NCBI RefSeq assembly: GCF_002900095.1
Contig: NZ_LLKN01000002.1
Location: 1,550,001 to 1,614,000 of the forward strand
DNA from: Salegentibacter mishustinae
Lineage (GTDB): Bacteria > Bacteroidota > Bacteroidia > Flavobacteriales > Flavobacteriaceae
Reading direction: 5' to 3'
Length of the DNA: 64,000 bases
The stretch's first letter is position 1. Every line of letters begins with the position of its first letter. This document shows, in pieces, positions 13,212 through 19,786 of the stretch. Position numbers and translations under genes: made by a program. The notes beneath the pieces were generated by a model. The model worked only from the letters and a program-made list of their open reading frames with translations. It made no database searches and had not been told where the DNA came from.

Positions 13212-14513
13212 ATGGATTTAGAGGAAGGATTTAAAATTTTAATTTGTCTTTTTGAAAATTTTCTAATAGACCAGGGCGTAAACTCTACAGTAGCACTTTA
13301 TCTAAATTTGTTACTGAATATCCTTATCCTTATTCTTATTATAATTGGGGTAAATTACCTGATCAAAAATTTTGTGATCACAACTTTCAAAAATTTTAGT
13401 GATAAAACCACCACTTCTTTTGACGATTACCTTATAAAAACCAAGTTTCCCAAATATATAGGACAAATACTTCCTATACTTATAATATATCTTACCGTTC
13501 CCTACATTTTACTTGAGTTTCCCCTGGCAATTAAAGCCTTCTATTTTGTAATTGACATATATATTATACTTCTTATTGTTTGGGTTATAAGAAGCATTTT
13601 GCGGGGTACAAAAGGCTACCTAAGAACCTTAGAATCTTTCCATGACAAACCGGTAGAGAGTTATATACAAGTAATAATGATTATTGTTTGGTTATTTGCA
13701 CTACTTTTTATTGTTGCAGAAATCACCGGTAAAGACGTTATTAACTTTATTATTTCTTTAGGTGCAGCATCTGCGATCTTATTGCTCATCTTTAAAGACA
13801 CCATCTTAGGATTTGTGGCCTCTATTCAGGTTAGTGTAAACGATATTGTGAGAATTGGCGACTGGATTACTTTTAGCAAATATGGCGCCGATGGTACGGT
13901 AACCGAGATCACCCTGGCAACCGTTAGGGTTCAGAATTTTGACAATACATTCACCTCTATTCCTACCTATAGTTTAATTTCTGAATCTTTTCAGAATTGG
14001 CGTGGAATGCAGGAATCTCCGGGAAGAAGAATTAAACGCTCGGTTTTTATTAAACAGAATTCTGTAAAATTTATTTCTGCTGAAGATTTTGAAAAGTATA
14101 AAAACATACAAATAATTTCTTCTTACCTGGAAGACCGGCAGAATGAGATCAATGAATATAACAAAACTCACAAAGTTGACACAAAACTTCCTTTAAACGG
14201 AAGAAACCAAACCAATCTGGGAATTTTTAGAAAGTATATTGACACTTATTTAAATAACCATTCTGCTGTTCATAAAGAGATGTACATTATTGTAAGACAT
14301 CTACAACCTACAGAACACGGTATTCCTATTGAGGTGCTTTGCTTTAGCCGGGATAAACGTTGGGAGAATTTCGAATATATAACCGCCGATATTTTTGATC
14401 ATGTAATTGCTGCCGTTTCTTATTTTGACCTTAAATTATATGAGGCTCCTTCGGGTGACGATATTCGGGAATATTTTTCTAAAACTTATGGCCAGGGAAT
14501 TGATTCTAAATAA
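13212..14513 (+). CDS. MscS-family mechanosensitive ion channel
   Basis: A 433-aa protein with four or five N-terminal membrane helices (about residues 20-180) and the MscS core. The pore helix is followed by DTILGFVASIQVSVNDIVRIGDWI, and the beta domain has TVRVQNFDNTFTSIPTY. The extended N-terminus and long cytoplasmic tail resemble the YbdG (MscM) subgroup more than the minimal MscS. It would open under membrane tension to release solutes on osmotic downshock. It is co-transcribed with the DUF3817 gene. Confidence 0.9.
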   Translation: MDLEEGFKILICLFENFLIDQGVNSTVALYLNLLLNILILILIIIGVNYLIKNFVITTFKNFSDKTTTSFDDYLIKTKFPKYIGQILPILIIYLTVPYILLEFPLAIKAFYFVIDIYIILLIVWVIRSILRGTKGYLRTLESFHDKPVESYIQVIMIIVWLFALLFIVAEITGKDVINFIISLGAASAILLLIFKDTILGFVASIQVSVNDIVRIGDWITFSKYGADGTVTEITLATVRVQNFDNTFTSIPTYSLISESFQNWRGMQESPGRRIKRSVFIKQNSVKFISAEDFEKYKNIQIISSYLEDRQNEINEYNKTHKVDTKLPLNGRNQTNLGIFRKYIDTYLNNHSAVHKEMYIIVRHLQPTEHGIPIEVLCFSRDKRWENFEYITADIFDHVIAAVSYFDLKLYEAPSGDDIREYFSKTYGQGIDSK

Positions 14514-15948: not shown

Positions 15949-17796
15949 ATGCTGAATATATCTGAATTATCGGAGAAATCAATTAAAAAAATTTTAACAA
16001 TCCTTGAGGAAGAATGCAAAATAAGTGCTTCACTTCCGGGAGGGGGGTTAATTCATATAGAAGATAATTTACCTTATCTTATCGTGTACCGTAAAAGGAA
16101 TAATGATGAAGGTACCGAGCGAATAATTGTTAGCGAAGCCTCTTATCTTTTAATTGGAGATAAATTTTTTGAAGCCTACCAAAGACTTGTTTATGCATTA
16201 GCCGATAAACTTTCTACCGAATTCAAATCCTATATGGTTTTTGAAATCTATACGGGAGAACCTAACAATTGCTTCACAATAAAAGCTCCTGCACAAAAAC
16301 TGCCTACATCGGTAAAAGCGCTACAAAGGGAACTCAATAATATAAATGAAACATTTTCTGGCCTCTACTTAAAGGCCAAGATAAAAGATACACCAAATCG
16401 CCAAAAAGAAGGTGACCAGGAAATTTTAAGCATTGATGAGGCAAAGAAATCCGGGGCGGTAATTGTAGGACTCGAAATTCCTCCGGTTTTTCGAGATGAA
16501 AACAACGAAGTTTACCCTGTTTTCCTTAGACAATTTAAAGACTATCTTATTACCAGTATTCATAAAGCAATTTACGATTATGTAAGGGTACAAACCACCA
16601 GCGGGGTGGGAAGTTATCTTGCTTTAGGTAGAAAACACTTAAAAGAAAAGGTATTTGAAATAGATAGAGCGCTTGCAAAAATAGAACGCTCTTATCAGTT
16701 TCTATGGCTGGTTTCCCCTGCTAATATTCAGGATATAAAAAACACTTTCTTTGAGAGTAATTATGAAAAGGTTTTAGATTATCACTACCGCTTACTCCCA
16801 ATAGACCCAGACTTATTAAAAAGGGAGCTATTTAATCTTAAAATTGAAGAAATTGATGATCCTGCCATGTCCCATATTTTTAGGGAAAAGCGGGAAGAAC
16901 TAGATCAGCAAATCACTATGCTAAGTGAACGCGGAACTGCAAATTTCTTCTACAACAGTATTAGGTTGTATAAAGGATTAAGTCCTAAGCTAAGCGAAGA
17001 AGCAGGAGAAATCTTAAGAGAGGTTGATGAAACTAGTGAAGATGAAAATGCCGAGTTTATTGATGCCAAAGGCTTTAGTAGCCTTGCCCGCCGGGAATTC
17101 GATTATTTCGCTGAACAGGATAAAAATTTTAAGAGTAAAGTTCATATTCGAAAGGATGTGAATATTATGATGGTTAATAACGGCGAGCTTTATGTTCCGG
17201 CCGATTATAAAATGAATAAAACCGAAGCAACTGCGCTTATTCAGCATGAAGTTGGTACGCATGTGCTTACTCATTATAATGGAACCCAACAACCTTTAGA
17301 ATTATTAAGCAGCGGCCTCGCAGATTATGATCCACTTCAGGAAGGTCTCGCTGTGATGTCAGAATATTTAGTAGACGGACTTACCGCTAATAGATTAAGA
17401 ACTTTAGCCGGAAGGGTAATTGCGGGGTCGGCACTAATGGAGGGTGCCGAGTTTCCGCAGCTATTTAGATTATTAAAAATGGATTATGGCTTTACCGCCG
17501 AAAGAGCTTTTAATATCACTTCCAGGATTATGCAGGGAGGCGGATTTCTAAAAGATATTATCTATTTAAAAGGTCTTGTACAACTTCGTGATCATTTACA
17601 GCAAGGTGGTGAATTTGAACCGCTGCTCGCAGGTAAATTTGGCCTGAAACATACCAAAATAATTAACGAGTTAACCGAAAGAAAAGTATTAAAACCTGGC
17701 GCACTGCGCCCAAGCTATTTATTAACCGAAAATATTACCAATAAATTAAACCTAATCAGAGAGGGGCTTCCCCTTTCAAAAATGATAAACCAATGA
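15949..17796 (+). CDS. DUF1704/QEGLA-motif metallopeptidase, MATCAP-like
   Basis: A 615-aa protein of the family named flavohemoglobin expression-modulating QEGLA motif protein (DUF1704). The zinc site is seen as HEVGTH at 433-438, with the namesake QEGLA at 464-468, whose Glu465 is a plausible third ligand. The N-terminal half is a distinct domain without a motif I recognise. The eukaryotic relatives are the MATCAP tubulin detyrosinases, so a C-terminal carboxypeptidase activity is a reasonable inference. Its stop overlaps the start of the ATP-grasp gene by four bases (ATGA), showing tight coupling. The cellular target is unknown. Confidence 0.88.
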   Translation: MLNISELSEKSIKKILTILEEECKISASLPGGGLIHIEDNLPYLIVYRKRNNDEGTERIIVSEASYLLIGDKFFEAYQRLVYALADKLSTEFKSYMVFEIYTGEPNNCFTIKAPAQKLPTSVKALQRELNNINETFSGLYLKAKIKDTPNRQKEGDQEILSIDEAKKSGAVIVGLEIPPVFRDENNEVYPVFLRQFKDYLITSIHKAIYDYVRVQTTSGVGSYLALGRKHLKEKVFEIDRALAKIERSYQFLWLVSPANIQDIKNTFFESNYEKVLDYHYRLLPIDPDLLKRELFNLKIEEIDDPAMSHIFREKREELDQQITMLSERGTANFFYNSIRLYKGLSPKLSEEAGEILREVDETSEDENAEFIDAKGFSSLARREFDYFAEQDKNFKSKVHIRKDVNIMMVNNGELYVPADYKMNKTEATALIQHEVGTHVLTHYNGTQQPLELLSSGLADYDPLQEGLAVMSEYLVDGLTANRLRTLAGRVIAGSALMEGAEFPQLFRLLKMDYGFTAERAFNITSRIMQGGGFLKDIIYLKGLVQLRDHLQQGGEFEPLLAGKFGLKHTKIINELTERKVLKPGALRPSYLLTENITNKLNLIREGLPLSKMINQ

Positions 17797-18842
17797 AAAT
17801 TTGCTTTGTATTAAACGATATTGAAAATGAAAGTTGCGGAACTTCTGTAATGCTCATGACTATGGCTCATTCAAGAGGCCATGAAGTTTATGCTATGGGC
17901 GTGGGTGATTTCAACTTTCATCACGATGCTCCAATAAGCATTAATAGTACACAAATACCAAAAAATACAAAAACCAAATCTCCAAAAAAGTTTTTAGAAG
18001 CTTTGCAAAGTTCTAAAGCCAGAAAAAAGAAAATTACAGCAAAGACTTTAGATGTGCTTTTTATTAGGAATAACCCTACCGAGGAAGATTCTGGCCGGGA
18101 ATGGGCTGAACAAGCCGGTGTTGCTTTTGGACGAATGATGCAGCAACAGGGAGTTTTGGTATTAAATGATGCCTATGCCCTTTCCAACGCTTTTATAGAT
18201 AAACTATATTTCGAAGAACTTCCTGCGGAAATTAAACCCGATTCTCTAATTACCAGGAATAAAGAAGACATTCTAAAATTCTGGGAAAAGAATAATAAAA
18301 AGATCGTTTTAAAACCATTAGAAGGATCTGGAGGACAGAATGTTTTTCTTGTTGATGAAAATGAAAAAAATATCAACCAGATCATTGAAACTATCAGCCA
18401 ACAGGGTTATGTAATTGCCCAGGAATTCTTACCGGCCGTAAAAGATGGTGACGTTAGAATTATTTTAATGAATGGTCGTGTAATGGTAAAAGATGGCAAA
18501 CAGGCTATTATTAGGCGTGTAAGCGGGGAAGGTGAATTCCGTAGTAATTTTGCACTTGGTGCCACGGCCGATAGCAGTGACCTTACTCCTGAAATGCAAC
18601 GTATTGTAGATCTTACCGCTCCAAAACTAATTCGAGACGGACTTTTTTTCGTAGGTCTTGATGTGGTAAAAGATAAATTAATTGAAATTAATGTGTTAAG
18701 TCCCGGGGGGATGGAGCATTTTAAAGATATAGGACTGCCAGAATTTTCTGATACGGTTATTGAAGCGATAGAGCGTAAAGTGGAATATAAAAACCTTTAT
18801 GGGCATCAATTTACCAACAGGGAAATTGCCTGTATGGAATAA
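17793..18842 (+). CDS. ATP-grasp ligase, glutathione synthase/RimK-like
   Basis: A 349-aa ATP-grasp enzyme. The N-terminal substrate domain opens MKICFVLNDIENE. The ATP-grasp core has KPLEGSGGQNVFLV (Lys174 onward, nucleotide binding), VIAQEFLPAVKDGDVRII, and the metal-binding FVGLDVVKDKLIEINVLSPGG near the C-terminus. It resembles bacterial GshB but lacks a GshA partner here. Lying between a MATCAP-like peptidase and an aspartoacylase-like hydrolase, it more likely ligates an amino acid or acyl group to a peptide or small molecule. The ligation product is unknown. Confidence 0.88.
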   Translation: MKICFVLNDIENESCGTSVMLMTMAHSRGHEVYAMGVGDFNFHHDAPISINSTQIPKNTKTKSPKKFLEALQSSKARKKKITAKTLDVLFIRNNPTEEDSGREWAEQAGVAFGRMMQQQGVLVLNDAYALSNAFIDKLYFEELPAEIKPDSLITRNKEDILKFWEKNNKKIVLKPLEGSGGQNVFLVDENEKNINQIIETISQQGYVIAQEFLPAVKDGDVRIILMNGRVMVKDGKQAIIRRVSGEGEFRSNFALGATADSSDLTPEMQRIVDLTAPKLIRDGLFFVGLDVVKDKLIEINVLSPGGMEHFKDIGLPEFSDTVIEAIERKVEYKNLYGHQFTNREIACME

Positions 18843-18865
18843 ATAAAATTTAAAAGGAACTTATT

Positions 18866-19786
18866 ATGAGCAACAAACCAGATAAACATATTCCCAGAAT
18901 AATTGGGAAATATACCAGCAATAAAAAAGGACCTTTACTCTTTGTAACCGCCGGAATTCACGGTAACGAACCTAGCGGTGTAAAGGCCCTGGAAGAAGTT
19001 TTTAGACAACTGGAAAAAACTAAACCCGAAATTGAAGGAACACTTGTTGGTGTCTCCGGAAATCACAAAGCCTTAAATCAAAATAAGCGTTATATAGATG
19101 AAGATCTAAATAGGGTTTGGACCGAAGAGAACATAAAACAAAAAAAGAATGAAACCCACGAGCAAAAAGAAATGTGGGAGATTATTGAGATATTAAATAA
19201 ATTCCCGGAGAAAGATTTCACTAAAAGGTATTTCCTAGACTGCCACACTACCTCATCGGCAAGTTTGCCGTATGTTTCGGTGCAGGAAGTAAATGATAAT
19301 AATAATTGGGCGCATAATTTCCCAACTTTTATTGTACGCGGATTTAGCGATATAATTACCGGCGATATAGATCATTATCTAAGCCGAATAGGAATGACAG
19401 GTTTTGTTTTTGAAGCAGGGCAGCATGAAGATAAAACTTCAGTTGAAAATCATGAAGGTGTGATCTGGCTGGCTCTAAAAGAAGCCTGTAACCTGGATCT
19501 ATATAAAATTAAGACTTATCCAGAGTGTGTAAATCGTTTTGCCGAAAAGAATGCCCCGGAGCAAAAAACTTTTGAGTTGGTACATCGCCACGGACTGGAA
19601 GATTCTGATAAATTTGAAATGGAACCTGGATATGAGAATTTCCAGAAAATTAAGAAAGGTGAACTTCTGGCAAAACAGAACGGAAAAGAGTTGAAAAGCG
19701 AATGGGATGCGAGAATCTTTATGCCACTTTATCAATCCCAGGGTAATGATGGCTTTTTTGTTATTGAAGAAGTTGAAGTCAAATAG
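18866..19786 (+). CDS. Succinylglutamate desuccinylase/aspartoacylase-family zinc hydrolase
   Basis: A 306-aa member of the AstE/AspA branch of the M14 carboxypeptidase fold. Zinc ligands are visible as His32 and Glu35 in GIHGNEPSG and His127 in DCHTTSSASLPY, with a general base Glu183 in VFEAGQHED. The C-terminal beta domain is present (EPGYENFQKIKKGELLAKQ). It should cleave an amide bond between an acyl group or amino acid and its carrier. It begins 23 bp after the ATP-grasp gene, so it is the third gene of the operon and is a candidate eraser of the ligase product. Confidence 0.88.
   Translation: MSNKPDKHIPRIIGKYTSNKKGPLLFVTAGIHGNEPSGVKALEEVFRQLEKTKPEIEGTLVGVSGNHKALNQNKRYIDEDLNRVWTEENIKQKKNETHEQKEMWEIIEILNKFPEKDFTKRYFLDCHTTSSASLPYVSVQEVNDNNNWAHNFPTFIVRGFSDIITGDIDHYLSRIGMTGFVFEAGQHEDKTSVENHEGVIWLALKEACNLDLYKIKTYPECVNRFAEKNAPEQKTFELVHRHGLEDSDKFEMEPGYENFQKIKKGELLAKQNGKELKSEWDARIFMPLYQSQGNDGFFVIEEVEVK

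Follow-up and report, generated by a model that had tools for sequence, protein, structure and literature searches.

The MATCAP proteins were recognised in 2022-2023 as carboxypeptidases of tubulin tails, and a search of the literature gave no account of what their bacterial relatives do. We consider here one such relative, encoded in a stretch of 64,000 nucleotides from Salegentibacter mishustinae (contig NZ_LLKN01000002.1, positions 1,550,001 to 1,614,000; hereafter the window), where the genes for a MATCAP-like peptidase (MAT), an ATP-grasp ligase (GRASP) and an AstE/AspA-family hydrolase (ASPA) stand one behind the other. Human MATCAP/TMCP1 (KIAA0895L) and TMCP2 have in common with MAT the catalytic fold and the motif series HExGTH...EGLA...KDxxYLxG at 19-20% identity, whereas a decayed N-formylglutamate-amidohydrolase-like (FGase) domain and the ligase and hydrolase neighbours are found on the bacterial side. 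The trio can be likened to the mammalian N-acetylaspartylglutamate (NAAG) cycle, in which an ATP-grasp NAAG synthase, a peptidase (of a different family) and an aspartoacylase carry out three steps of corresponding kind on an acyl-acidic-amino-acid peptide. Our search found no paper on the trio itself; the 2009 survey of amidoligases by Iyer et al., which the search did not cover and which may mention it, reportedly deals with related ligase-peptidase neighbourhoods.

Operons that join a ligase as writer to a peptidase as eraser are already known in bacteria, as PMC11957791 and PMC12239564 describe. In the first, the RimB-RimK(-RimA) system of Pseudomonas fluorescens, an ATP-grasp ligase likewise has a peptidase at its side, which takes off the residues that the ligase adds. 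RimB, however, is a retropepsin-like aspartic peptidase rather than a MATCAP zinc peptidase, the ligase of our trio belongs to the GshB lineage, and the S6 target is that of the Rim system. In the second, the rlo operon of Pseudomonas aeruginosa, the same pairing is formed by the peptidase RloA and the ATP-grasp protein RloC; according to the passages on it, loss of the ATP-grasp protein suppresses loss of the peptidases and the operon is tied to hypo-osmotic stress, while RloA is secreted and retropepsin-like and a membrane transglutaminase-like RloB is present, unlike in the trio. Also related are the rhizobial trios of FGase, DUF1704 and 'glutathione synthase' genes (for example on Sinorhizobium meliloti plasmid CP050512), in which a long MAT and GRASPB of related kind follow one another as they do here; FGase is a separate gene upstream, and ASPA is missing downstream.

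We think it a little better than an even bet that the trio of the window is a cytosolic module which writes and erases an amino acid: GRASP would ligate it, MAT would trim the product and ASPA would free the amino acid.

Linkage of the three genes

All three genes lie on the same strand. MAT overlaps GRASP by 4 bp and ASPA begins 23 bp behind GRASP, just as the preliminary description had it. Its assignments of the first gene to the DUF1704/QEGLA metallopeptidases and of the third to the AstE/AspA hydrolases agree with the profiles, MAT being placed there by PF08014 (261.6 bits, cut-off 27) together with its HEVGTH and QEGLA motifs, and ASPA by AstE_AspA_cat PF24827 (72.8 bits, cut-off 25). 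For the second gene, called RimK/GshB-like, the GshB lineage stands (GSH-S_ATP PF02955, 172.1 bits, cut-off 23) and RimK falls away (rimK_fam, 80.6 against a cut-off of 143.4). More specifically, GRASP scores 439 bits against NF009110 (PRK12458), for which the cut-off is 408.

That the three genes should be neighbours in other genomes had been set down beforehand, and they are. MAT and ASPA lie within about 2.5 kb of each other in 14 of 14 genus mates (in G008, whose assembly is 61% complete, ASPA is in two pieces), and GRASP is adjacent in all six of these 14 that were inspected directly (L074-L079). With the window's own genome included in these genome counts, PF08014 is found in 28 of 60 relatives, the 14 genus mates among them, and in 18 of 345 genomes of the phylum; in 14 control genomes neither PF08014 nor any NF009110 match above cut-off was found. 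Strong NF009110 matches (E<1e-100, a threshold chosen after a gap in the scores was seen) occur in 17 of the 345 genomes, and all 17 are among the 18 with MAT and lie at most 2.2 kb from it, sometimes with FGase or further genes in between; 16 of them exceed the curated cut-off and one, in G061, is below it (396.5 bits). At E 0.001 some match, mostly partial, is seen in 134 of the 345 genomes. The single MAT genome without a strong ligase match (G242) has a divergent MAT with HEAYVH in place of the usual motif. On this genome-wide co-occurrence we rejected a chance neighbourhood of genes. Against five relatives, dS of the three genes is finite in 10 of 15 comparisons, and dN/dS there is 0.024-0.061; most dS values exceed 1, with synonymous sites mostly near saturation, so the ratios are rough.

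The preliminary description had proposed a survey of DUF1704 neighbourhoods; made over loci that come in large part from Flavobacteriaceae, and over plasmid records, it shows the ligase recurring with MAT, in 112 of 125 loci. These loci (L040-L165 without L057) are not independent. Eighty come from one biased scan of named genomes with a mixed MAT alignment. Of at least 574 loci matched there, these are the top 80; every one has a short-type MAT match and nearly all are from Flavobacteriaceae genera. Other phyla lie outside such a sample, and plasmid records served in its place. L061 and L131, and likewise L062 and L142, are probably the same contigs, while L102 (with part of the ligase) and L144 run to the ends of their contigs. 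The commonest order is ligaseA>FGase>MAT (83 loci), with four loci in which FGase and MAT are fused behind ligaseA. FGase>longMAT>ligaseB accounts for ten, and two have both ligases and FGase. The window's order, longMAT>ligaseB>ASPA, is seen in 11, with one more that has ASPA on the opposite strand and one of longMAT>ligaseB only. The remainder are two FGase>MAT loci at contig ends, ten with MAT alone and one with an FGase+MAT fusion alone. Six further plasmid loci comprise four of FGase>longMAT>ligaseB, one of ligaseA>FGase+MAT and one of MAT alone.

ASPA and FGase were found together in no locus, counted within one fetched stretch (the genome of L065 has both, in other loci, L066 and L073). 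ASPA here takes the place of the FGase of most related operons. Among the FGase operons, L049 (6270-7438) has two genes between ligaseA and FGase. One is rhodanese-like, and its family occurs in six loci; the other encodes about 110 aa that match nothing in Pfam, and its family occurs in four.

An ATP-grasp ligase together with peptidases could also signal a peptide natural-product cluster of graspetide kind. In the flanks of 12 ASPA-type loci (L054 excluded), taken as 700 bp on the upstream and 500 bp on the downstream side, no small open reading frame is common to more than 3 loci, however, and the three window genes have no transporter gene among them or as an immediate neighbour. We rejected such a cluster of ribosomally synthesised and post-translationally modified peptides, finding no conserved precursor peptide in a search of the adjacent DNA, not genome-wide, at the 12 loci, and consider it hardly credible.

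Protein families and the glutathione question

The core of MAT has the MATCAP fold, so that structurally it is a MATCAP, and we propose that it is a zinc carboxypeptidase of that type, as its motifs predict. HE(I/V/M)GxH is kept in 123 of the 125 MAT proteins, the exceptions being L040, with HEAYVH, and L067, which lacks both HExxxH and QEG. The latter, a short MAT at L067 7907-9058 with neither ligase nor FGase as neighbour, is a dead copy in a genome that has an intact ASPA-type operon (L072). MAT itself does not reach the NCBI equivalog for QEGLA proteins (TIGR02421, 299.9 against 338.65).

Because PF08014 spans only part of MAT, some 245 residues in front of it form an additional domain, which the preliminary description left out. 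On its own this domain has no Pfam match. Aligned by hhalign with the FGase profile it gives a probability of 95.6% (E 1.2e-8), against at most 1.8% for 14 control families, and with this result we dropped the idea of an unrelated insertion. Its position matches that of FGase in the FGase+MAT fusions (L045, L063, L070, L161, L162, L181), while the FGase motifs HxGH and D(M/I)H, which we take to have a metal role, are absent in all seven long MATs of the alignment. The tree of long MATs was built from 26 sequences including that of the window, with four later additions left out.

ASPA has the superfamily motifs HGNE, which we take to be zinc-binding as part of the family's HxxE...H motif, and DCHTT. 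It lies far below the named equivalogs (AstE, 63.4 against 305.65; aspartoacylase, 60.4 against 180). Elsewhere (L168-L178), AspA-like proteins are encoded right behind a large protein (nine loci) or fused to it (two loci); both of the large proteins tested have CBS domains, and one is weakly similar to glutamate-cysteine ligases.

Could the trio simply make and turn over glutathione? NCBI names the PRK12458 subfamily glutathione synthetase, the nearest solved relative of GRASP is E. coli GshB (1.2e-36), and the sister ligase GRASPA exceeds the cut-off of NCBI glutathione synthase PRK05246 (281.6 against 272). GRASP of the window, on the other hand, is below both GshB equivalogs (PRK05246, 206 against 272; TIGR01380, 192.2 against 299.05), and in ten aligned GRASPs the SPTC of E. 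coli GshB is replaced by SPGG, SPGA or TPGG. A profile search of the window genome found no GshA of PF04262, and its sole GCS2 match is YbdK-like and belongs to a separate operon, where its neighbours are FGase and a ligase resembling RimK. The equivalog scores, the missing PF04262 and the replaced SPTC led us to reject GRASP as an ordinary GshB, and ordinary glutathione synthesis and turnover is in our judgement decidedly improbable.

Features of the trio in the window, with the symporter of a related locus
Feature	Residues	Position	Strand	Description or basis
MAT	1-615	15949..17796	+	MATCAP/DUF1704 zinc carboxypeptidase-like, 615 aa
MAT N-terminal domain	1-245	15949..16683	+	decayed FGase-like; hhalign and alignment
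MATCAP catalytic domain	266-601	16744..17751	+	Pfam PF08014
HEVGTH zinc/catalytic motif	433-438	17245..17262	+	alignment of MAT proteins
QEGLA motif	464-468	17338..17352	+	opposite EEGLA of human MATCAP in alignment
KDxxYLxG motif (here KDIIYLKG)	535-542	17551..17574	+	human MATCAP: KDQVYLDG
GRASP		17793..18842	+	GshB-lineage ATP-grasp carboxylate-amine ligase, 349 aa, PRK12458 subfamily (NF009110)
ASPA		18866..19786	+	AstE/AspA-family zinc amidohydrolase, 306 aa; motifs HGNE / DLNR / DCHTTS / FEAGQH
HGNE motif of ASPA	32-35	18959..18970	+	sequence and alignment of 15 proteins
Sodium:dicarboxylate symporter		L041 11147-12472		PF00375; just upstream of ligase

A proposed amino-acid cycle and its rivals

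Two other operons of the window genome resemble the trio. One (L057 7137-10491, C2 ~1364136-1367490 in the stretch C2:1357000-1375000) encodes an RLAN/RimK-like ATP-grasp protein, a GCS2 (YbdK-like) ligase and FGase; no other GCS2 or FGase match was found in the genome. The other (L183 3872-6150, C2 ~747871-750149 in the stretch C2:744000-754000) joins a RimB-type protein (PF05618), RimK and an AspA-like hydrolase, so that the genome's own Rim locus has an AspA-like gene as the trio has ASPA; the main text of the RimK structure paper (PMC10092738) contains neither 'aspartoacylase' nor 'succinylglutamate'. Together with the trio this makes three operons, each with an amide ligase and an AspA or FGase hydrolase, and two of them also with a peptidase.

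In the mechanism that we propose, GRASP would spend ATP on linking an amino acid to an acceptor's carboxylate; MAT, with its dead FGase domain at the N-terminus, would trim C-terminal residues off the product of GRASP; and ASPA, in the role that FGase would have elsewhere, would cleave the N-acyl or amide bond that is left and so free the amino acid. All three would act on one product; the cytosol is the likely place, the sequences having no obvious leader. The writer/eraser interpretation of the preliminary description is to this extent supported in part.

What would be tagged? Of the 68 testable short-type loci from named genomes (L080-L159), 49 have a sodium:dicarboxylate symporter gene (PF00375) at most 600 bp upstream of the ligase, the gene before it presumably encoding chorismate synthase. 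In nine loci MAT follows directly behind the symporter, with ligase and FGase both missing; eight of these MATs have intact motifs and one (L067) is the dead copy. The joint loss suggests that ligase and FGase work together, and yet MAT can stay without them. One possibility is a protein tail: GRASP would add amino acids to a C-terminus or side chain of a specific protein, MAT would trim the chain and ASPA would take off the residue at the branch. Models for this are RimK/RimB, acting on ribosomal protein S6, and TTLL/CCP/MATCAP, acting on tubulin. The MATCAP structure of the MAT core speaks for this, since passages of PMC10499314 report that human MATCAPs shorten polyglutamate on tubulin, and so do RimK/RimB as a known bacterial writer/eraser and the Rim locus of the window genome. 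We nevertheless find tagging of proteins unlikely: no protein-substrate gene was linked in the neighbourhoods seen, the symporter adjoins the short-type operons, and characterised AstE, AspA and FGase enzymes act on small acyl amino acids. Rather than a protein, the acceptor would more likely be something small, an N-acyl or peptide conjugate. Given these hydrolase families, the polyglutamate trimming by human MATCAPs and the symporter neighbour, the added amino acid would most likely be acidic (Glu or Asp).

Passages of PMC10308900 report that in Photobacterium damselae a 'GshB', read by its authors as glutathione synthetase, is up 38.4-fold at 1% versus 3% NaCl, and the next locus tag, a QEGLA protein, 27.5-fold. 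This pair probably corresponds to the ligaseA and FGase+MAT genes of other Photobacterium (L162, L181), and an osmotic role of the module is hinted at. The same induction, the symporter and the genomes that keep MAT without a ligase would also suit a purely catabolic salvage, in which MAT and ASPA degrade an imported acyl peptide, GRASP re-ligates, and hypo-osmotic or nutrient change is the trigger. A ligase accompanying MAT in 17 of 18 genomes would be odd for a purely degradative path, and we regard salvage as improbable.

Several observations weigh against the writer/eraser module that we favour. The case for an acidic amino acid is built on family analogy and on a symporter that stands beside another operon subtype, and with ASPA under both equivalog cut-offs the acyl group and the amino acid cannot be deduced from its family. 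The score of GRASPA points towards glutathione, and the YbdK-like GCS2 of the window genome may allow glutathione-like synthesis. Two genomes without MAT, G250 (215 bits) and G134 (194 bits), have the next NF009110 matches, weaker ones of full length. MAT is without partners in ten of the 125 loci and in one Pseudoalteromonas plasmid locus, and eight of the ten are Flavobacteriaceae with intact HExGxH and QEG(L/M)A, so MAT can persist without the ligase. Finally, the predicted structure of MAT, for which related sequences without the N-terminal domain were used, is good in the core and poor in that domain, where blocks from residue 31 to residue 230 have a pLDDT of 28-54, so the FGase assignment rests on hhalign and on position in the FGase+MAT fusions.

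Two neighbourhoods may be recorded beside these. The lone Pseudoalteromonas MAT (L184 5959-7239; HEGWIH, QEGLA) has a gene for an AbgT-family (p-aminobenzoyl-glutamate) transporter about 1.8 kb away. An MscS-type mechanosensitive channel gene (window 13212-14513) ends 1.4 kb upstream of MAT, and another stands beside MAT in L041.

More generally, one may tentatively imagine, though we would not expect it, both that a widespread bacterial tagging cycle, probably for glutamate or aspartate, consists of a GshB-like ligase, a MATCAP carboxypeptidase and a hydrolase of acyl amino acids that can be exchanged, and that the tubulin-trimming MATCAPs of eukaryotes descend from its eraser. The ligase partner in 17 of 18 genomes and the exchangeable hydrolase offer a concrete handle for genetics and biochemistry, and genes labelled 'glutathione synthase' beside a 'flavohemoglobin expression-modulating QEGLA motif protein' may form one module with another product.

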